From positions 1 through 20,331 of the forward strand of contig DAOWJU010000147.1 in the NCBI GenBank assembly GCA_030640215.1: DNA of 20,331 bases, given 5' to 3'. Of this stretch, positions 3,082 to 18,715 are shown in pieces. The position numbers and the translations under genes were made by a program. Position 1 is the stretch's first letter; each line of letters opens with the position of its first letter. The notes below the pieces were generated by a model. That model was not told the DNA's origin and searched no databases. It worked only from the letters and a program-made list of their open reading frames with translations. The DNA comes from Desulfuromonadales bacterium. GTDB lineage: Bacteria > Desulfobacterota > Desulfuromonadia > Desulfuromonadales > BM103.

Positions 3082-3119
3082 CTAGCAGCCAGTTTATTGA
3101 TTGTCCGACAGGCTGCTAG
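3082..3119. repeat. Inverted repeat between convergent genes, possible bidirectional terminator
   Basis: CTAGCAGCC (3082-3090) and GGCTGCTAG (3111-3119) form a perfect 9-bp inverted repeat around a 20-base loop. It lies between the PilZ stop and the response-regulator stop, and the right arm contains that TAG stop. Neither side has a clear run of T, so an intrinsic terminator is possible but not certain. Confidence 0.4.
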
Positions 3120-5020
3120 CTGAACATTTTGCCGAAGAGTCCCTTCTTCTTTTTTTCTGCTTTTTCCTTACGCATACTCATCAGTCGTATTTCACGGAGA
3201 GCTTCGGTGCAATTCGGGTTGCACAGGATTGCTCGTTCGAAACGACGCTGCGCTTCTTTCTCATTGCCCTCATCTTTAGAGAGGTAGCCCAGATATAAGT
3301 GGGCCAGACTCAACTTGGGGCTTAACTCTGTCGCCCTGATCAGCTTCTTGCGGGTATTGATGACCACCTCTGTTGAACTGGAATTGGCTTTGTAGGCTGA
3401 CCATGCCTGATACATGAGATATTCCGCTTCGTTGGGACTCAATTCCAGTGCTTCAGCAAAGGTTTTTTGTGCTTCATTGTATTTTTTGACCCGGAAGAGC
3501 ACCATGCCCTTCTGAAAGGCTGTCTCCGCCTTGAGGATTGTTTCAAGATTGGTGGTCGATCTGGCCGCGCCTCCCTTACGATCCCCTATATAACGTGCTT
3601 TGGATGTTTCATCACTCAGTGTTTCGTGAGCATCACTGATGCGCTGGAAGAGAGCATTCACCTTATCTCTCAGGTCAAGCAGAACGTCTTGTTCGAAAAA
3701 GCGGTCCGGGTGATATTTCTTAACCAGGCTGTAGTAAGACTTGCGTACCTGATCACGGGGATCAGACTCACTCACGCCGAGCAGAGTGAAATAGTCCTGC
3801 TCCATCATCCAGGCATAGTCCTTCAAAAAAGTTTCCCGTCGAGTCCGAAGATCCTCTGCTTCATCACAACAGGACTCGTCAGGTGCGGTCGCAGGTTCGG
3901 TCCGTGCGACCAGTATTCCCGTACTTAGCAGTGTGGCCAGCAGGGGTTCTGCCTCCTTGCGTGACAACAGATGTCGTTTAAGAACATCTTGCAAGGTCGT
4001 ATTGCCCTGACAGCTTGCCAGGATACGTTCCTCGCTGGCAGAGAGCTGGATCTCCTGAAAACGGTAGAGAGGGTTCTCGGCCTGCTGCAGGTAGCTGTCA
4101 AGATGTGGTTCGAGGATCTTCAGGACCTGTTCGCGGCTGGCATAGTCGCGTAATCCCTGTAGAATCAGGTTGGCTGGCGACAGGTCGATGCTGGTGATGC
4201 CCTGCTTGAACTCGCGTGCCTGCATGAACCGGTAACAACCCTCTGGCCAGGCAAATGTGCCGAGGAGCTTTTCGAGTACCTGGTTGCGCAGGACGTCGTT
4301 CAACTGGTGTGGAGTGAGCAGGCCCATCTCAATCAGGGCCATGCCGTGACGCTGACCTTTCTCTTTGGCGACTTGCAGAGATTCTTTCAGCTCCTCGTCG
4401 CTGAGATGCCCGGTACGTACGAGTATCTGGCCTAGAAATTCTCGCACCAGATTTGAACGTGCGAAGATAGGATAGCCGTTACGGATGTAGACGACTTTCT
4501 TGACGTCGTTGTGCTCCAGATGCAACAGCCCGGTTGCACGCAGGCTGTAAAGATTGTGCAGGATACGCGGCAGACCGGTCTCAGAGAGTTTTCCTTCGAT
4601 AGTGAGGCGCTCTGTATCTGATGCCACCGTGGGGGCACCGATCAAGGCATCGATCTTCTCGTGCAGGGTTTTCAGAGGGAAAGGCTTGAGCAGATAGTCT
4701 GTCGCACCGTATTGTTCGCGAGCATCACGAATGTGGTCAGTTTGTTTGTAAAAGGCGGTCATCATGATGACCGGAAGTTCTTTGGTCTTCGGCAGCGATC
4801 TCAGCTTACGGCAGAGTTGCAGTCCGTTGGTTCCAGGCAGGAGGATGTCCAGCAGGGCCAGATCAAAATCGTGGTTGTCCAGCTCCAGCAGCGCTGCTTC
4901 CGCATCTTCAAAACTGTGGACTTCGTAGCCGTGCAGACGCAGGGACTCGGCGAGAAAACGACGGATATTCGGGTCGTCATCGACCATCAGAATGTGTTTG
5001 CTGCCCCCCTCAGGACTCAT
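3116..5020 (-). CDS. Response regulator fused to PATAN (DUF4388), J-domain and TPR modules
   Basis: The 634 residues contain four modules. (1) A receiver domain at about 8-127 has the acidic pocket D14-D16, phosphoacceptor D58, T88 and K112, so it should be phosphorylatable. (2) A PATAN/DUF4388-like region at about 139-300 contains the pattern TGLLHLEH...VVYIRNGYPIFA. (3) A DnaJ J-domain at about 409-478 has an intact HPD motif (437-439), so it should stimulate an Hsp70 ATPase. (4) Tetratricopeptide-like repeats lie at about 497-610 and are followed by a lysine-rich tail ending GLFGKMFS. There is no DNA-binding domain, so output is probably through protein contacts. The ATG is one base after the glnE stop, with GGAGA nine bases upstream, which implies translational coupling. 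Such fusions are known in Desulfuromonadales and Myxococcales; the target process is unknown. Confidence 0.85.
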   Translation of the reverse strand: MSPEGGSKHILMVDDDPNIRRFLAESLRLHGYEVHSFEDAEAALLELDNHDFDLALLDILLPGTNGLQLCRKLRSLPKTKELPVIMMTAFYKQTDHIRDAREQYGATDYLLKPFPLKTLHEKIDALIGAPTVASDTERLTIEGKLSETGLPRILHNLYSLRATGLLHLEHNDVKKVVYIRNGYPIFARSNLVREFLGQILVRTGHLSDEELKESLQVAKEKGQRHGMALIEMGLLTPHQLNDVLRNQVLEKLLGTFAWPEGCYRFMQAREFKQGITSIDLSPANLILQGLRDYASREQVLKILEPHLDSYLQQAENPLYRFQEIQLSASEERILASCQGNTTLQDVLKRHLLSRKEAEPLLATLLSTGILVARTEPATAPDESCCDEAEDLRTRRETFLKDYAWMMEQDYFTLLGVSESDPRDQVRKSYYSLVKKYHPDRFFEQDVLLDLRDKVNALFQRISDAHETLSDETSKARYIGDRKGGAARSTTNLETILKAETAFQKGMVLFRVKKYNEAQKTFAEALELSPNEAEYLMYQAWSAYKANSSSTEVVINTRKKLIRATELSPKLSLAHLYLGYLSKDEGNEKEAQRRFERAILCNPNCTEALREIRLMSMRKEKAEKKKKGLFGKMFS

Positions 5021-5021
5021 C

Positions 5022-8000
5022 TCAAACGTTCTCCGTGCACTTCAGAATGCGGCTAAAAGTCTCTCTAATGGTCTGGGTTGTACTGGCGTACTCTTCCAGA
5101 AACAACTTTTCTGGATGTCCTGACGTGTCCGGGTAGCCAAGGTGTCGGGCCAGCTTGGCGAGAGCCTTGGGTTCGGCAGTTAATTCATTAACGGACTGGT
5201 CATGAACCAGGCGCAACTTGTTTTCCAGACGTCGCAGGAACTTGTAGCCAGTGGTAAGATTCTCATAGTCCAATCTTGAAATCAAGTTTTCACTCTGCAG
5301 GATTGAGAGAGCCTCTACCAGATTGCGGCAGCGTAGCACGGGCTTTTCTTTACCGTGCAGCAGTTGCAGATATTGGGCGATGAATTCAACATCGACCATG
5401 CCGCCGCGGCCGGTTTTAATATTGCGTTGCTGCTCGTTTTCCTTGCCGAGTTCCTTTTCCATGCGCTGTCGTAGCCGACAGATCTCTTCGGCAAGATTCT
5501 CCGGCAAGGGGCGCTCGTAGACGATCTCAGCGGTCAGGGCCTCATAGCTTGTGGCCAGTTTTTTCGAACCAGCGGCCACTCTGGCTTTAATCAGTGCCTG
5601 ACGCTCCCATGGTGCAGCAGAGCCTTCGTGGTATTCACGATAAGCTGGTAGTGAAGAGACCAGTTGGCCCTGGTTACCGGATGGCCGCAAACGAGTGTCG
5701 ATCTCATAAACGTGACCTTCCTGAGTGATCATGGTCAGAACGGAAATGATTCTCTGGGCCAGGCGGATAAAATACTGTTTGTTGGTCTGGGGCCTGAATC
5801 GCTCCGGATCGGTCCCCTCAACCGGCCTGGTATCCCCCTCACCTTCATAAATAAAGATGATGTCGAGATCGGAATGATAATTTAATTCCATGCCGCCAAG
5901 TTTGCCCATGCCGACAATCGCGAATCCCGCTTCATGTGATGCGCCGCTGTCGTCCAGGCAATAGGGCAAGCCGTATCGTTCCAGGAGTTCTTCACGTGCC
6001 ATGAGCAAGGCCTGTTGCAGGCAGACATCGGCGACTAACGAGAGCTGACGGGTGGTTTGACCCTGAGGTGTGTGGCCATGAATATCGTTGAGGGCGATAC
6101 GCAGGAACTCTTCATTGCGGAAACGCCGCAGAGTGTTCAACTTTTCTTCGTAATGAGCTGCGTTGTCAAGATGTCCTGACAACTCTGCAGTAAGGCCTTC
6201 CGGTTCCTTGACGCTCTGGGCATAGCCCCTCGAGACCAGAGAATCAAGAACTTCAGGGTGCTGGATAAAGTTGCGCGAAAGAAACTGGCTGGTGGCAAAC
6301 AGGGCGACCAGAACTTTGATGATCTCCGGGTTTTCGGCAAGCAGGGCATAGTAGGTGCCACGTGCCCGTCGACAGGCCTGCAGGAATTTTTCCATATTCG
6401 CCAGAGCCATCGGCGGGTCAGGACTGCGTAATACCTCCTGAAAGAGCAGTGGTGCGATCCGGTCAAGTTGCCGTCGTGCCCGCTCGGTCAGATAGCCTTT
6501 GGTGCCACCTTGGCGCAGAACCGTCAAGCTCTCGTAGGCATTTTCCGGCTGGCGAAAACCTTTCTCCTCAAGGATGTCCATGCAGAGATCCGGGTCAGCG
6601 TTGGCATCGAAAAGCATGGCAACCTCGGGACTGACCTGGGACGGCAATTCTTCTTCGCTGGTATAAAAGAGATCACGGAAGATGGCTGTGACATGCTCTC
6701 TATGCTGCCGTAAAACAGCCATGAACTCTTCGGAGTGAGTAAATCCACAGCGCCTGGCCAGAGCCGTCAACTCTTCTGGTCGGGTCGGCAAGTTGTGCGT
6801 CTGCTGCTCGTTGACGACCTGAATGCGATGCTCTGCGGTGCGCAGGAAGCGATAGGCCGCACTCAGATTATCCCTCTCTTCGACGGTGATGAGTTCCTCA
6901 GCACAGAGCAGTTGCAGAGCGTTTAAAGAGTTGCGTTCACGCAGATGCGGGTTCTTGCCGGCGTTGATCAGTTGCAGAGCCTGAATAAAAAATTCGATTT
7001 CCCGAATACCGCCATACCCCAGCTTGAGGTTCAGATCACCCTCTTTTTCGCGCGTCAGGCTGCGGTCAATCTTTTGTTTCATGATCTTGATGTCATCGAT
7101 CATGGCGTAATCAAGATGACGGCGGTAGATGAACGGTTCCAGTCGCTGCAACAGCTGCTCGCCGAGCGCTTTTGATCCGGCGACCGGACGGGCTTTGAGC
7201 ATTGCTGAACGTTCCCAGCTCTGCCCCCAGCTTTCGTAATAAATCTCTCCGGCAGCAAGGGAGTTGGCCATTTCACCGCTGTTTCCTTCGGGGCGCAAGC
7301 GCAGGTCAACGCGGAAGACGAAGCCGTCTTCGGTCGCCTGGCCAATCGCCTTGCTGATCAGCTCAGACAATTTGACGAAGTACTGGTGGAGTGAAATCCG
7401 GTTACGTTGACCGCGAACAGGGTCGGTAACCCCCGTTGTCTGACCACGATCAGAGCTGTAGAAATAGATCAGGTCGACATCGGAAGAAAAATTCAGTTCG
7501 CAGCCACCGAACTTACCCATGCCGAGAATCGTGAATTCGGCTTGCTCCGTTGGCGTGCCATCGTCGGCTTCAAGCATGGGGATACCATACTCAGCTTGCA
7601 GTTGGATGCTGCAGACTTCAAACGCTCTTTGCAAGGTCGCTGCGGCTAAGGACGAGAGCTCGTCGGTCACTTCTTCGAGCTCTGCCAGGCCGCACAGATC
7701 TCGCCCGCCGATACGCAACATCTCCTGGGCCTTGAAGATACGCAGGCCCTTCTTCAGTAGCGCAGTGTCGGCATCGTCAGAGATCATCTGGCGCAGTTCC
7801 GTGCACATCTGTTCTTCGGTTTTTGTCTCTCTGATCTGGCCCTTTTGAAAGAGACCGGCAAAAATACTTGCCCGCCGGCAGAGAATGCCAGAAAGGAAGG
7901 CGGAGGCCCCGAGGATCGTCAATAATTGTCTGGTGGAAGTTTGATCGATGAGAACAATTGGCAGGTCGGTTTTGTCGACTGTCCCGCACAGGCGTTCGAG

Positions 8001-8216
8001 GTTGTTGAGTGTCTGGTCAGGATCAGCAGTTGTCAGCGCCTGTTTGGCAAGATCAGCGACAAGCTCGGGATCTGACAAAAATTCCTGTAGTAGAACCAGA
8101 TTGGTCGCGGTTTTTGCCGGCTCGGCAAAACCTGCTTCGGCAGCTGTGGCAGCAAGATCTGTTTCATTGCCAGCGGTAATCTGTTCACGCCATATTGGGA
8201 ACTCTGCAAAAGTCAT
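5022..8216 (-). CDS. glnE: Bifunctional glutamine synthetase adenylyltransferase/adenylyl-removing enzyme
   Basis: GlnE sets nitrogen assimilation by adding AMP to, or removing it from, a tyrosine of glutamine synthetase under PII control. The protein has the expected duplicated architecture. Residue numbers here count from the TTG at 8219; subtract one for the ATG. The first nucleotidyltransferase domain has GMGKFGG (233-239), the metal-binding DVD (247-249) and RVDLRLRP. The second has GMGKLGG (770-776), SDLD (783-786) and DTRLRP. Each is followed by a helical GlnD/PII-uridylyltransferase-like region containing GGIREIEF or GGMVDVEF. About 1064 residues is slightly longer than E. coli GlnE. 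ATG at 8216 is preferred over the adjacent in-frame TTG at 8219; neither has a strong ribosome binding site. It lies 11 bases after mtnA and one base before the response regulator. Glutamine synthetase itself is not in the window. Confidence 0.95.
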   Translation of the reverse strand: MTFAEFPIWREQITAGNETDLAATAAEAGFAEPAKTATNLVLLQEFLSDPELVADLAKQALTTADPDQTLNNLERLCGTVDKTDLPIVLIDQTSTRQLLTILGASAFLSGILCRRASIFAGLFQKGQIRETKTEEQMCTELRQMISDDADTALLKKGLRIFKAQEMLRIGGRDLCGLAELEEVTDELSSLAAATLQRAFEVCSIQLQAEYGIPMLEADDGTPTEQAEFTILGMGKFGGCELNFSSDVDLIYFYSSDRGQTTGVTDPVRGQRNRISLHQYFVKLSELISKAIGQATEDGFVFRVDLRLRPEGNSGEMANSLAAGEIYYESWGQSWERSAMLKARPVAGSKALGEQLLQRLEPFIYRRHLDYAMIDDIKIMKQKIDRSLTREKEGDLNLKLGYGGIREIEFFIQALQLINAGKNPHLRERNSLNALQLLCAEELITVEERDNLSAAYRFLRTAEHRIQVVNEQQTHNLPTRPEELTALARRCGFTHSEEFMAVLRQHREHVTAIFRDLFYTSEEELPSQVSPEVAMLFDANADPDLCMDILEEKGFRQPENAYESLTVLRQGGTKGYLTERARRQLDRIAPLLFQEVLRSPDPPMALANMEKFLQACRRARGTYYALLAENPEIIKVLVALFATSQFLSRNFIQHPEVLDSLVSRGYAQSVKEPEGLTAELSGHLDNAAHYEEKLNTLRRFRNEEFLRIALNDIHGHTPQGQTTRQLSLVADVCLQQALLMAREELLERYGLPYCLDDSGASHEAGFAIVGMGKLGGMELNYHSDLDIIFIYEGEGDTRPVEGTDPERFRPQTNKQYFIRLAQRIISVLTMITQEGHVYEIDTRLRPSGNQGQLVSSLPAYREYHEGSAAPWERQALIKARVAAGSKKLATSYEALTAEIVYERPLPENLAEEICRLRQRMEKELGKENEQQRNIKTGRGGMVDVEFIAQYLQLLHGKEKPVLRCRNLVEALSILQSENLISRLDYENLTTGYKFLRRLENKLRLVHDQSVNELTAEPKALAKLARHLGYPDTSGHPEKLFLEEYASTTQTIRETFSRILKCTENV

Positions 8217-14582: not shown

Positions 14583-14618
14583 AAAAAAAGAGGGGGCCAG
14601 CAAATGCCGGCCCCCCCT
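14583..14618 (-). terminator. Intrinsic terminator of the octahaem cytochrome gene
   Basis: On the - strand, a GC-rich stem of at least ten pairs (GGGGGCCGGC with GCTGGCCCCC, one G-U) encloses the loop ATTT. It is followed by C and a run of seven T. It lies about 25 bases past the stop codon. Confidence 0.93.
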
Positions 14619-14643
14619 ATAAAACTCAAATAAGTTTCAAAAA

Positions 14644-16035
14644 TTATTTTGAGCGAGAATACTTCGGGTTGTCCATCGGGTCACCCTTGTAGCCGAGAGC
14701 TTTCCAGTTCATGCGGCCATTGTCGTCGTGACAATCTAGACAGCTGAGAGCTTCCTCTTTGGGGGAGACCATATGGTTGATGCGCCAGTACATTTCTGTA
14801 GGAGCAAAACCATATTCACCGCTATAGGGGGTGCCGCTGGCTTCCATGCCTAGACGCGCTGCCTTGTCCCAGTCGAAATCACGCCAGTAGCCGCCATCGC
14901 CGAAGACCTTGGCAGTGATGAGGTATTTGTTCTTCGTATCGTAAATCTGCTTGCCTGAATGCAGTTTGAACGGGAAGATTTTGGCAGTTTTGTCCTTGAT
15001 GTCACCCTTGGGATAAGTCAGGTAGGTGATTTTGTCCGGATCAATCTTGTCGCCAAGCTCGTAGGCACTGGCTGAGCCGTTGTACCAGAGGTACTCAGGA
15101 ACGACGTTCTTGCCCCACTTGAAGTGACCTTTTTTCTTCGAATAAGCATGCTTGCCGTATTCGTCTTTTTCTTCTTTGTGACCTTCCTCGCCAGCCGTTG
15201 ACCAGTCCCAGGACAGCTTGGTGGGGACATCCTTGGCAAACACAGGGATATGACAGGTCTGACAGGCGACATCAGCAATATGCTTGTTCAGGCGGGCCTG
15301 AGTATGAGGCTCTTCAGTATGGCAGTTTTCACAGTTGAAGTGCGAAGTGCCGCCGGGAGAAACACCGAGAGAGTTGCCCGGGATACTGTGTTCTTTGGTC
15401 TCGTGGCACTCCTGACAGGTGAAATCGTTGCCGTCGGTGTCCATGTGCACATCGATCTCTTTGGTCGGGTACTCAATTGAAGAATCGAGATCGCCGTGTT
15501 TGACTGCATCACCGCCGCCGCCGTAGAAGTGGCAGGTGCCGCAGTTGTAACGACTCGGCTTGCCAACATTCTGAGCGACATAAACCAGATCAACACGCTT
15601 GGAGGGATTGCCAGCGCCGGTAGGCTCCTTGGTGTAGGTACCGGTGGTGTCGTGACAGACCAGGCAGTCTATGTTGCCAGCGTTGCTGAAGTCGAAGCTG
15701 TCATCAGTCCAGCCGTAACCGGCGTGACAGCTGGTGCAACGTGGCTCATTGCCAGCAATCGAGGTGCAAAAGTTGTTGATGGCGTTTTTCTTGCCACGCA
15801 CGACTTTACGACCATCTACTTCCTGCTCCAGACCCCAGGTCCAGTGTGTGGTTTTCATAAAGTCAGTCGCGTGCTTCTCATGGCATTTCAGACACTGGGC
15901 GGTCACTTCCGGTCCACTGTCCATCGGCCCCTGTACGTAGTAGCTGTGATCATTCTCCGCGGCCAGGGATGAGGCCGCTGTGAGAGTGAGAAGCAGGACA
16001 CTGAACAGAGCGCCCGAGATAAAAAGTCGCTTCAT
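14644..16035 (-). CDS. Octahaem c-type cytochrome, OTR/tetrathionate reductase family
   Basis: The 463-residue precursor has a signal peptide (MKRLFISGALFSVLLLTL..., cleavage near residues 24-26). It has eight CXXCH haem sites, at 48, 100, 124, 165, 207, 235, 258 and 432. The haem spacing, the segments THWTWG, INNFC(T)SIAGNEPRCTSCH and DCLVCHDTTGTY, and the long gap before the last haem match the octahaem tetrathionate reductase (OTR) family. The Shewanella member reduces tetrathionate, nitrite and hydroxylamine in vitro and has a lysine as active-site haem ligand. That lysine cannot be assigned by eye here, though a basic stretch (R77-K84) precedes haem 2. No CXXCK site is present. ATG at 16035 follows AAGGAG by eight bases; an upstream in-frame start would spoil the signal peptide. 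It has its own promoter and terminators on both sides. The physiological substrate is unknown. Confidence 0.92.
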   Translation of the reverse strand: MKRLFISGALFSVLLLTLTAASSLAAENDHSYYVQGPMDSGPEVTAQCLKCHEKHATDFMKTTHWTWGLEQEVDGRKVVRGKKNAINNFCTSIAGNEPRCTSCHAGYGWTDDSFDFSNAGNIDCLVCHDTTGTYTKEPTGAGNPSKRVDLVYVAQNVGKPSRYNCGTCHFYGGGGDAVKHGDLDSSIEYPTKEIDVHMDTDGNDFTCQECHETKEHSIPGNSLGVSPGGTSHFNCENCHTEEPHTQARLNKHIADVACQTCHIPVFAKDVPTKLSWDWSTAGEEGHKEEKDEYGKHAYSKKKGHFKWGKNVVPEYLWYNGSASAYELGDKIDPDKITYLTYPKGDIKDKTAKIFPFKLHSGKQIYDTKNKYLITAKVFGDGGYWRDFDWDKAARLGMEASGTPYSGEYGFAPTEMYWRINHMVSPKEEALSCLDCHDDNGRMNWKALGYKGDPMDNPKYSRSK

Positions 16036-16086
16036 GGTTGTTTCTCCTTGGGTGTAGTTATTGGTTGGTTTGTGCAAAACTTTTTT

Positions 16087-16114
16087 ATGTTACCAAAGAA
16101 CTGGCTGTTGGCAA
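16087..16114 (-). promoter_or_regulatory. Predicted sigma-70 promoter of the octahaem cytochrome gene
   Basis: On the - strand, TTGCCA (-35, five of six) and TAACAT (-10, four of six) are 16 bases apart, between the porin terminator and the cytochrome ATG. The predicted leader is about 45 bases. Confidence 0.45.
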
Positions 16115-16123
16115 CTTAACATA

Positions 16124-16137
16124 ATATATTGATATAT
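16124..16137. repeat. AT-rich inverted repeat upstream of the octahaem cytochrome promoter
   Basis: ATATAT, TG, ATATAT form a perfect inverted repeat about ten bases upstream of the predicted -35 box. It could be a regulator site or an UP-like AT-rich element; simple AT composition could also produce it. Confidence 0.25.
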
Positions 16138-16151
16138 AGATTGAGCGGGCC

Positions 16152-16183
16152 AAATAAAAGGGGGAGAGGCGAACCTCTCCCCC
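16152..16183 (-). terminator. Intrinsic terminator of the porin gene
   Basis: On the - strand, GGGGGAGAGG and CCTCTCCCCC form a perfect 10-bp stem around a TTCG tetraloop, followed by TTTTATTT. It lies about 13 bases after the porin stop and separates it from the octahaem cytochrome gene. Confidence 0.95.
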
Positions 16184-16195
16184 GGTAAAGCTGAT

Positions 16196-17827
16196 CTAGA
16201 ACGTCATTGTCAATGAAGCGTTGTAATCGATAACTTTGTCGACAGCGGGCAGCATTGAGAAAGCTTTGCCGTCCTGTACATCATCGACTTTCTGCGGCTT
16301 ACCAACTGGAGATCCGCTACCGGTGTACTCATAGTCGTAGTAGAGTGCGCCGAATTTAAGGAACATGCGCGGGTTGATGTCTACGACATAGTAGACTTCA
16401 CCGACATGGCCGCGGGTGGCAAGTTTGCTACCAGCAACATCGTCTTGAGCCTGAGTGAAGGGCATCCAGTACTTGGAGCCGTAGTTGTATTCGACACCGA
16501 ACTTACCAAAAGGCGCTGGAGTCTGAAGGCCGACGTACACGGAGTAGCCGTCCTGAGCCTTGTCTTCTTGAGAGTTGCCGCTTGGTGCCATGCCAACCAG
16601 ATAATCAGGGATACCGTCGTCATTCTCATCTAAAAAGACAGGGTCCATTTCCGCGTCAGAAAGCAGGCCGCCGAACATGCCAGCTTTTCCGTTAGGATCC
16701 GTCCGGGTCCAACCGAAAGAACCGAACATGGTTAAGCCGTTATCTTGTTCACGGACATAACCGATACCGGCCAGGTTCAGATCGCCGATGTTGGTGGTAC
16801 CGTAGTAACGAGACTCAAGATTGAAGCCTGGCATCATCGCTGAACTCATGCTTGGCGGAAGAAAATTGCTAGGAATAGCCAGCGTGCCTTTAAAACCGTC
16901 GCTGATGTCTTGAGCGCGGAAAGCGGTCAACTGAACAAGGTTGTTGCCGTCGTTGAGAGCATCAATATTGAAGCCGCCAAGATGGGTATCCTCTGCAGAA
17001 ATTTCACCCCAAAGCTCGCCGTTGCCGTATTCGGACTCGAAGCCCTGACCGTAGCAGAAGCGGATGGTCTGGCCTTCCCAGCCGGTGATCTCGCCGAGTT
17101 TGTAGCCAGCGGTGATACCATCAAAGTTGAAATTAACCAGATGGCCGGATGGGGTGCCACCGCGCAGTTCGTTCTCGCGGAAGTTGGCTGGAGGGCCGTA
17201 GGTTGAAGGACGACGACCGATGGAGAGGTAGAAGTTGCTGTCGTTGATGTTGGACCAGTCAAAGAATGCGCGTTCTACATGTAAGGTGTCATCAGTGGTG
17301 TTACCGCTGTTGGTACCGTCCATGGTGAAGCTGTCCCATGAGTCAAAGACTTTTGTTCCGGTGGAATCTCCCCAGTTCTTGTACATGAGTAGACGGCCGT
17401 TGAACTTGACGTTGTCCCAGATTTTGGCCTTCATGTTGAGGCGCAGGCGGGTTGTGTAGAGAACGTCGTTGTTGAGATCAGATTTTTTACGTTTGAAGGT
17501 CCCGTCTGGATTCATGTTGAATCCAGCTGGGTCCGGGCCATTGGGAGTCAGGGCGATTGGAGTCGTGATGGGAGGCTCCACAACCGTAACATCTTTATAG
17601 TGCAGGCTGTCAGCCTTGACACGCAGGTCACCGGTGAACTCAATGCGATCGAGTGTGGCGTGTCGCTCTGTAAAATCGACGCGATCATTCAGCTCTTCCA
17701 GTTCTTCGCTCAGCTCCTCAATCTGTTTTTGCAGCTCCGAGATCATGGCATCTTCCTGGCCCACCGCAAACGCGGTTGCCGGCAAAGCCAGCAGGGCAGC
17801 CATGATCAGGTAAAGAAATTTCTGCAT
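16196..17827 (-). CDS. Outer-membrane beta-barrel porin, DUF3373-like
   Basis: The 543-residue precursor has a signal peptide (MQKFLYLIMAALLALPATAFA, cleavage near 21). A short coiled coil follows at about 25-52 (ISELQKQIEELSEELEELNDRV), then a long region rich in alternating polar and aromatic beta-strands that ends in YNASLTMTF. The terminal Phe is the usual outer-membrane barrel signal. The N-terminal pattern, coiled coil then RIEFTGDLRVKADSL, recalls DUF3373 porins of Geobacter-like bacteria, which often neighbour cytochromes. An insertion at 400-408, DENDDGIPD, fits a calcium-binding loop. AGGAGG lies six bases before the ATG. It follows the second small cytochrome gene by 30 bases, so the three genes are probably one transcript that ends at the terminator just downstream. 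Its role may be substrate entry or holding a cytochrome conduit; neither is proven. Confidence 0.83.
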   Translation of the reverse strand: MQKFLYLIMAALLALPATAFAVGQEDAMISELQKQIEELSEELEELNDRVDFTERHATLDRIEFTGDLRVKADSLHYKDVTVVEPPITTPIALTPNGPDPAGFNMNPDGTFKRKKSDLNNDVLYTTRLRLNMKAKIWDNVKFNGRLLMYKNWGDSTGTKVFDSWDSFTMDGTNSGNTTDDTLHVERAFFDWSNINDSNFYLSIGRRPSTYGPPANFRENELRGGTPSGHLVNFNFDGITAGYKLGEITGWEGQTIRFCYGQGFESEYGNGELWGEISAEDTHLGGFNIDALNDGNNLVQLTAFRAQDISDGFKGTLAIPSNFLPPSMSSAMMPGFNLESRYYGTTNIGDLNLAGIGYVREQDNGLTMFGSFGWTRTDPNGKAGMFGGLLSDAEMDPVFLDENDDGIPDYLVGMAPSGNSQEDKAQDGYSVYVGLQTPAPFGKFGVEYNYGSKYWMPFTQAQDDVAGSKLATRGHVGEVYYVVDINPRMFLKFGALYYDYEYTGSGSPVGKPQKVDDVQDGKAFSMLPAVDKVIDYNASLTMTF

Positions 17828-17857
17828 CTTGTTCCTCCTAAGAAAAAGGTGAAAAAA

Positions 17858-18208
17858 TTATTGTCCGCAGGTCGCCGGTTGGGGCGAATCTGCAGCATGA
17901 TCATACATAAATTGCATGATATCAATCAGTTCGTTCGGGTTGATCTTGTCCCAGGTGCCGGGTGCTTTTTTGTTGTGCTTGTCTTTGCTATAGAAGCGTT
18001 CCCATTGTCGCTGGGTTTTTGATAGAGGCGTCATAGTGCCTCCTTCAGCTCCGGTCACATGGCAATATTTGCATTTTTCTTTGGCCAGTATTTTGCCCTT
18101 TTTGGCGTCGCCGCCCTCAATTGCCGCCTGAGCGATACCTATCGCAAAGAGGCTGACAATTAGCAAGGCCAGGCCAGAGAATTTGAGGGAGTTCAAACAG
18201 CTTTTCAT
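17858..18208 (-). CDS. Small periplasmic monohaem cytochrome c (second paralogue)
   Basis: This 116-residue precursor has a signal peptide (about 1-28, ending IGIAQA) and one haem site, CKYCH at 46-50. The segment MTPLSKTQRQWERF follows, and the C-terminus carries DHAADSPQPATCG with a cysteine at 114. It is clearly a paralogue of the cytochrome encoded 57 bases upstream. The methionine after the haem (M59) is not at the same alignment position as in the paralogue (M56 there aligns with L62 here), so the sixth haem ligand is uncertain. The ATG at 18208 was chosen over one two codons earlier because GGAGG is seven bases from it but only one base from the earlier ATG. Probable role: electron carrier for the porin or octahaem cytochrome system. 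Confidence 0.88.
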   Translation of the reverse strand: MKSCLNSLKFSGLALLIVSLFAIGIAQAAIEGGDAKKGKILAKEKCKYCHVTGAEGGTMTPLSKTQRQWERFYSKDKHNKKAPGTWDKINPNELIDIMQFMYDHAADSPQPATCGQ

Positions 18209-18265
18209 GGTCATACCTCCAATGAGATAATTTGGACCCGCGTTCGATCTCCCTCATTCACTAAA

Positions 18266-18586
18266 TTAACCGCAAGTCTGAGGTTGGGGAGAATCTGCAG
18301 CGTGATCAAACAGGAACTGCTGAATGTCCTTCAAGTCTTGTTCCGAAAATTTCTCCCAAGAGGCTGTATCGTGCTTTTTCTTTTTGAAAAAGCGATCCCA
18401 CTGGGATTGGGTCTTAGTCATCGGAGTGACTTCGCCACCCTCGCCACCACTGGAGTGACAGGTTTTACAGCTCTTTTTGTAGAGATGCTTACCCTTGCGC
18501 GGGTTGCCTCCTTCGGCAGCAAAAGCTGATGTGGCAATGAATGTTGCCAGGGTAAGGAAGAGTACTGGTTTGAGTAACTTTTTCAT
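18266..18586 (-). CDS. Small periplasmic monohaem cytochrome c (first paralogue)
   Basis: The first gene of the cytochrome-porin transcript encodes 106 residues. It has a signal peptide ending SAFA near residue 23, a haem site CKTCH at 40-44, then VTPMTKTQSQWDRFFKKKKH and the C-terminal DHAADSPQPQTCG shared with its neighbour. M56 is the only methionine after the start codon, so it is the best candidate for the distal ligand unless H95 in the conserved DHAADSP serves instead. GGAGG lies ten bases before the ATG. The protein is lysine-rich and should bind acidic partners. A predicted promoter and a palindrome lie about 80-130 bases upstream. The mature domain of about 80 residues is in the range of small class I cytochromes; the physiological partner is unknown. 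Confidence 0.88.
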   Translation of the reverse strand: MKKLLKPVLFLTLATFIATSAFAAEGGNPRKGKHLYKKSCKTCHSSGGEGGEVTPMTKTQSQWDRFFKKKKHDTASWEKFSEQDLKDIQQFLFDHAADSPQPQTCG

Positions 18587-18663
18587 GATTAAAATGCCTC
18601 CGTTTTCCTTGGTTGTTACCGCCTGTCGTTTCTCTCGACTGCGGTGAAGTCATGATTGAGATG

Positions 18664-18683
18664 AGCCAAACATGATATTGGCT
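18664..18683. promoter_or_regulatory. Palindrome at the predicted start site of the cytochrome-porin transcript
   Basis: AGCCAA and TTGGCT form a perfect inverted repeat with an 8-base spacer, 20 bp overall, just downstream of the predicted -10 box and covering the expected start site near 18679. The 10-mer GCCAAACATG (18665-18674) recurs in the same orientation at 18723-18732, upstream of the -35 box. The arrangement fits a repressor operator with an upstream half-site. No regulator gene is adjacent. Confidence 0.4.
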
Positions 18684-18685
18684 TC

Positions 18686-18715
18686 AATATATCCCGATTA
18701 CACAATCTATGCCAA
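18686..18715 (-). promoter_or_regulatory. Predicted sigma-70 promoter of the cytochrome-porin genes
   Basis: On the - strand, TTGGCA (-35, five of six) and TATATT (-10, five of six) are 18 bases apart. The transcript would start near 18679 and carry a leader of about 90 bases before the first cytochrome ATG. Confidence 0.5.

Follow-up and report, generated by a model that had tools for sequence, protein, structure and literature searches.

A porin with an exchangeable reductase in Desulfuromonadales: a probable module for the entry and reduction of sulfur compounds

Why is an octahaem cytochrome c of the OTR family encoded beside an outer-membrane porin and two small cytochromes, and on what does it act there? 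The question is raised by a stretch of DNA of 20,331 nucleotides from a Desulfuromonadales bacterium, analysed at its full length and called the window here; the source assembly is of 2.7 Mb and 83% complete. The role of OTR in living cells is unsettled, and to our knowledge the passage of sulfur compounds across the outer membrane of sulfur-reducing bacteria is poorly understood. We consider that the locus is probably a module for the entry and reduction of a sulfur compound and not an electron conduit, mainly from the finding that in sister lineages a Psr/Phs-like molybdoenzyme takes the place of OTR behind the porin. The repeated exchange is natural evidence that the two enzymes serve the same task, and it draws attention to a channel, to one small cytochrome and to particular cysteines.

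Gene content of the locus

The four genes and the codons referred to below are as follows (aa, amino acids).

18266..18586, minus strand: cytochrome A, open reading frame (ORF) of 106 aa with CKTCH; exported-type monohaem cytochrome c, Pfam Cytochrome_CBB3 37.9 bits
18274-18272, minus strand: codon of Cys105 in the TCG tail of cytochrome A; tail Cys in 67/67 aligned rows
17858..18214, minus strand: cytochrome B, ORF of 118 aa with CKYCH; paralogue of A in tandem, TCGQ tail, 21.7 bits to Cytochrome_CBB3, below the cut-off of 27
16196..17827, minus strand: DUF3373 porin, 543 aa; PF11853 452.5 bits (Pfam gathering cut-off 26.1), N-terminal helix and predicted barrel
17056-17054, minus strand: codon of the invariant porin Cys258; Cys in 117/117 aligned rows
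14644..16035, minus strand: OTR-family octahaem cytochrome c, 463 aa from ATG, eight CxxCH counted; TIGR04315 628.2 bits (NCBIfam cut-off 375)
15768-15766, minus strand: codon of OTR Cys90 (Cys64 of PDB 1SP3), column conserved
15501-15499, minus strand: codon of OTR Lys179, column conserved

These identities bear out an earlier sequence-only reading of the locus, which had named two monohaem cytochromes, a DUF3373-like porin and an OTR, all of them exported. In addition to the scores above, residues 28-458 of the octahaem protein matched 1SP3, the Shewanella OTR, at 677.9 bits, and the N-termini of all four proteins are hydrophobic and signal-like. The last porin residue, read from the sequence, is Phe.

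Linkage of porin and OTR across genomes

In 136 genomes of the order, a DUF3373 match was found in 82 and a TIGR04315 match in 76. OTR lay directly downstream of the porin on the same strand in 34 of the 82 porin genomes, with a domain-edge gap of 85-263 base pairs (bp) and with the small cytochrome upstream, so that the linkage on which the sequence-only reading had been made to depend was indeed found. In one of the 34, G090, the OTR is cut by the contig end. OTR rows below 100 bits are absent from the adjacency table, as are additional short fragments of DUF3373 in G086, and the selection of relatives' regions leaves out rows below 140 bits and the G053 region. The adjacency spans seven families (f1, f7, f8, f9, f14, f19 and f20), and in a 395-genome sample of the phylum the distant families f25, f79, f83 and f110 hold porin, small cytochrome and OTR together with different spacing or order. 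The porin-OTR pair is a real and conserved unit made of known parts. We found no description of the pair or of the exchange reported below in the literature searched, from which most subscription journals were absent, and none of the passages found on DUF3373 was about a porin-OTR module.

In f22, f23, f24, f50, f68, f117 and f124 the gene that comes after the porin encodes a second octahaem protein, whose score is below the TIGR04315 cut-off. Its example soon after DUF3373 is L212 4164-5624 (153.7 bits), and the same family is present in L209, L213, L214, L219, L220, L221, L223, L224, L228 and L252; the OTR Lys and Cys columns are kept in the rows aligned. Elsewhere, locus L146 (G023:C13:5208-8103) carries two OTR genes in tandem, and the same genome has three weaker OTR relatives on another contig. 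The plasmid search gave no porin match and five OTR places; of the two places inspected, that of Paracoccus has no annotated porin, and that of Photobacterium is unannotated, its flanks not having been searched for a porin.

Exchange of the reductase behind the porin

Many porins without OTR are followed instead by genes for a 733-aa molybdoenzyme, a 184-aa iron-sulfur (FeS) protein and a 382-aa NrfD protein. The protein families of this operon were scanned in one genome, G062. The large subunit of that member had PhsA as its best NCBIfam match (554.9 bits, below the cut-off of 694), and its best PDB match, 418 bits with the next at 199, was 2VPW, whose entry name is thiosulfate reductase and which we take to be the Thermus polysulfide reductase PsrA. 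The clade of such genes, defined by at least 1160 bits, comprised 25 genes in 25 of the 136 genomes. In 21 genomes the gene lies directly downstream of the porin, that is, in the same slot as OTR, to which its family is unrelated; the other four are in G072, G082, G095 (where no porin was found) and G106. None of the 34 genomes with a porin-adjacent OTR contained a Psr orthologue, and in the genome of the window, at the completeness given above, no Psr-like gene was found at E 1e-100.

When genomes outside f6 were compared, OTR or Psr was present in 65 of the 70 with a porin and in 13 of the 52 without one (Fisher's test, 2e-15, uncorrected for relatedness). The five remaining porin genomes are G003, where the porin match is fragmentary, G086, whose porin contains stops, G088, which has a divergent porin, G090 with its truncated OTR, and G104, where the contig ends 88 bp after the porin. 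On a tree of 68 of the 77 porins, from which 9 of the 12 f6 rows had been dropped, the partner switched 8 times. A second tree was built from 38 rows for which an OTR or Psr partner is known, after 15 near-duplicates or long branches had been removed by hand; it gave 9 switches (bootstrap range 8-9), at least five of which were forced by starred branches. For example, G091 has OTR and G093 and G094 have Psr, with group support of 100/100.

A shared class of substrate is the best explanation for two unrelated reductases trading places behind one porin. The exchange suggests that, in vivo, OTR acts on a sulfur compound. A precedent for an octahaem protein in place of a molybdopterin reductase is Dethiobacter alkaliphilus, which is reported to have no molybdopterin sulfur reductases and OTR/SirA-like octahaem proteins in their stead (PMC10376724).

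In 3 of the 7 f22 regions, a protein combining haem and rhodanese-type domains lies after the porin, and a Psr-like gene comes next. These middle proteins (L218 8140-9537, L210 7912-9315 and L211 7981-9426) have one N-terminal CxxCH and then the rhodanese-type domains, as scanned in L218 with NCBIfam matches below the cut-offs.

The OTR active site

The OTR of the window and that of Shewanella oneidensis (SO4144, 1SP3) belong to the same family, have eight haems and share the conserved Lys and Cys64 columns. OTR Lys179 aligns with K153 of 1SP3, which is presumably the Lys distal ligand of the active-site haem, and Lys was present in 149/149 aligned rows, many genes being held twice in this set. 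In the Cys64 column of the same rows, Cys was found 142 times, TGA 6 times and a gap once. One in-frame TGA each was present in 30 of the 78 over-cut-off OTR rows of the phylum sample and in 7 of the 84 OTRs of the order. Of these 37, 21 were checked, and in 21/21 the TGA fell on the Cys64 column and was followed by a hairpin. The loci are L153, L160, L201, L205, L206 and L253-L268, and the hairpin resembles a selenocysteine insertion sequence (SECIS), often reading CUGGUGC-AGGU-GCACCAG.

TIGR04315 is already listed among selenoproteins in a review table (PMC13188914), in an entry that gives neither a motif nor the position of the residue. The TGA at the Cys64 column suits thiol or selenol chemistry and offers a clue to the chemistry of OTR that is independent of the exchange.

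Small cytochromes with a tail cysteine

The two cytochromes of the window were confirmed as a pair, and the suggestion that a pair is part of the system did not extend to relatives. Both copies were found in 6 of the 16 regions of f1, the window's own family, and the other cytochrome-bearing regions examined had one copy. Cytochromes A and B are thus a local tandem pair, and the conserved composition holds only one. The small cytochrome is kept where the Psr-like enzyme replaces OTR. Among its 83 relatives of at least 140 bits, 64 lie directly upstream of a porin and 19 elsewhere, which rules it out as a strict partner of the porin. Nine of the non-porin places were inspected: G131 and G133 are at contig ends, six (G107, G055, G008, G075, G061 and G108) had no sought partner, and in G072 (L269; 4052 and 5497-8136) the cytochrome is directly before Psr with no porin between. 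At that locus a rhodanese-type protein match of 228 bits lies just upstream on the other strand. Because the cytochromes are kept with the Psr-like enzyme, and in G072 directly precede it, the proposal that they feed or drain OTR is unproven.

The tail Cys (TCG or similar) is present in all 67 rows of the order and in 51/51 of the closest relatives, and five distant cytochromes of the phylum also have it, as KCK, TCE or TCD. In the 67 rows the tail Cys is the sole invariant residue among Met, His and Cys beyond the haem motif; a Lys is found in 66. All 51 of the closest relatives have His72, and its column holds His in 56/67 of the wider set. In His/Cys-ligated haem c of the SoxAX, TsdA and DsrJ type, Cys is the distal haem ligand. 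The tail Cys would be one of few candidates for such a ligand here, and a porin tether and a sulfur carrier are the other candidate roles that we considered.

In relatives of the small cytochrome from f25, f110 and f79, YxxCH replaces CxxCH (L249 6671-7009, L250 5109-5633 and L240 3301-3765). These may be possible cases of single-cysteine haem attachment in bacteria.

The porin and the limits of its family

The porin has a single invariant Cys, found in all 77 members of the order and in every row when the phylum sample is added. In an AlphaFold2 model (mean predicted local distance difference test score 71.4, predicted template modelling score 0.72), 18 long strands were counted, and Cys258 lies in strand 254-261, two residues from the invariant Arg256 and on the same face. 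This face would look into the barrel lumen. The modelled fold resembles that of solute porins by VIA comparison; no MtrB-type barrel was among the matches listed, which excludes nothing.

No sought partner was found in 29 of 121 porin regions, and 21 of these 29 belong to distant families of the phylum. The neighbours scanned in 11 of the 21 are mostly housekeeping genes, including ClpB, PgeF, gyrase A and MnmG, but a single DsrC-like gene and a single SelD-like gene with an AIRS domain are also among them. On these regions and neighbours we reject the idea that the DUF3373 family serves sulfur only, and the sulfur reading is limited to the porin branch with the tail-Cys cytochrome.

In G074 (L116 8891-10654) the gene after the porin encodes a sodium/hydrogen exchanger with CBS domains, and a gene of similar size follows the porin in G075. 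Upstream of the porin in G071 (L073) there are three consecutive ORFs of 260, 279 and 260 aa with 12 CxxCH each.

Transcription signals

Consensus scans of the region gave the following sites.

18686..18715, minus strand: sigma-70-like promoter match upstream of cytochrome A, 10/12 positions
16160..16183, minus strand: intrinsic-terminator-like hairpin between porin and OTR, 10 pairs, 8 GC, T-rich tail
14589..14618, minus strand: intrinsic-terminator-like hairpin after OTR, 13 pairs, 10 GC, T-rich tail

The promoter is a consensus match only, one of 8 found against 4.2 in shuffles. Terminator-like sites numbered 8 against 5.5 expected in shuffles, and the two hairpins flanking OTR were the strongest. 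A single transcript of all four genes is not assured because of the hairpin between porin and OTR, which rules against a single four-gene operon. By these scans the cytochromes and the porin look like a core unit and the reductase like a partly separate one. Across relatives the arrangement is mixed, with such a hairpin in 15/33 porin-OTR gaps and 8/19 porin-Psr gaps.

Proposed pathway and alternative explanations

In the sulfur reading that we favor, the DUF3373 barrel would be the pore through which a reducible sulfur compound of the tetrathionate, polysulfide or thiosulfate type enters across the outer membrane, and the small tail-Cys cytochrome would work in the periplasm beside it. OTR would be the terminal reductase, acting with its Lys-ligated haem and the conserved thiol of Cys90, and the slot that it fills is exchangeable, being occupied by the Psr/Phs-like enzyme in sister lineages. 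A quinol dehydrogenase with its gene at another place would supply OTR with electrons, for which the small cytochrome may be the route. We also count for sulfur that a soxY gene adjoins otr in lucinid symbionts (PMC11237559). In S. oneidensis MR-1, a monohaem cytochrome, SO4142, is two genes from otr SO4144 by number, and both are raised in the dataset of one paper (PMC5955497); the number between them, SO4143, appears together with Shewanella in none of the papers searched.

Several points weigh against this reading. A porin link is seen for 33 of the 84 over-cut-off OTRs of the order and is lacking for the other 51. The 29 partnerless regions mean that no tie to sulfur holds for the entire DUF3373 family, the sequence of the Psr-like enzyme does not by itself fix its substrate, the hairpin sets the porin apart from OTR, and the Fisher test takes no account of relatedness. 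Two multihaem cytochromes of unassigned sequence from Desulfuromonas acetoxidans, with 6 and 8 haems and of 50 and 65 kDa, are reported to lack polysulfide reductase activity (PMC7762298). The same source gives cytochrome c-551.5 as the proposed polysulfide reductase of that species. Finally, nitrite and hydroxylamine are also reduced by OTR in vitro (PMC4484225). On this last ground OTR could instead be a periplasmic reductase of nitrogen oxides (nitrite or hydroxylamine), with the porin as a general pore. We regard this as unlikely, as the repeated Psr-like exchange and the TGA at the active-site Cys codon would fit sulfur-sulfur substrates better.

A conduit, in which the porin holds the small cytochrome and electrons pass from OTR to an external acceptor, or to OTR from an external donor, is suggested by the co-encoding of an outer-membrane barrel with cytochromes, as in the Pcc and MtrCAB systems. 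Porin-cytochrome gene clusters are reported in Geobacter and D. acetoxidans, and the cytochromes of Pcc are one of 8 haems in the periplasm and one of 12 haems at the outer membrane (PMC4245776). In contrast, the haem proteins next to the porin of the window are limited to the monohaem cytochromes and a single octahaem enzyme of soluble type, with no set of multihaem cytochromes to serve the inner and outer sides of the membrane, and the predicted barrel resembles ordinary solute porins. The electron path through the outer membrane offered by the sequence-only reading is thus not borne out, and we give the conduit a very slim chance.

Entry and reduction of selenium, tellurium or arsenic oxyanions, with the porin admitting selenite-type oxyanions on which the reductases act, has a similarly small probability in our judgment. 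It draws on the ext cluster of Geobacter (ExtHIJKL), where the porin ExtI stands beside a multihaem cytochrome as the window porin stands beside OTR. ExtI, taken as DUF3373 from the f6 loci, in which a DUF3373 protein is beside ExtKL in 11/12 regions, is required if selenite and tellurite are to be reduced fully (PMC5877670). The f6 porins share the invariant Cys of the window porin but form a distant branch by phmmer score, at 200-226 bits to it when most other full-length porins reach at least 542 (exceptions are G088 at 191, G044 at 216 and the second G089 copy at 357 bits). The window also differs from the ext cluster in lacking ExtH, ExtJ and ExtKL, the partner of its porin being OTR; near the porin no ExtKL-type match was found, and its neighbours are the cytochromes, OTR, purB and GAPDH. 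Counted against oxyanions as well is that we know of neither OTR nor Psr/Phs enzymes as selenite reductases.

Within the sulfur reading, a relay of sulfur across the outer membrane by thiols may be put forward tentatively, and we hold it to be rather doubtful. Cys258, on the strand face of Arg256, would capture sulfane sulfur or a sulfur oxyanion, and the C-terminal thiol of the cytochrome, as a SoxY-like or rhodanese-like swinging tail joined to a haem, would take it over. The active-site Cys or selenocysteine of OTR, or the Mo of Psr, would then reduce it. In the three f22 regions described above, the protein that unites a lone haem motif with rhodanese-type domains could hold the middle place.

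Other features of the window

The genes flanking the module, purB and a long GAPDH gene, are unrelated to it. No tRNA was found in the window, nor any Rfam family at gathering score. At 3116-5020 on the minus strand, a single protein combines a response-regulator receiver, DUF4388, DnaJ and TPR repeats.

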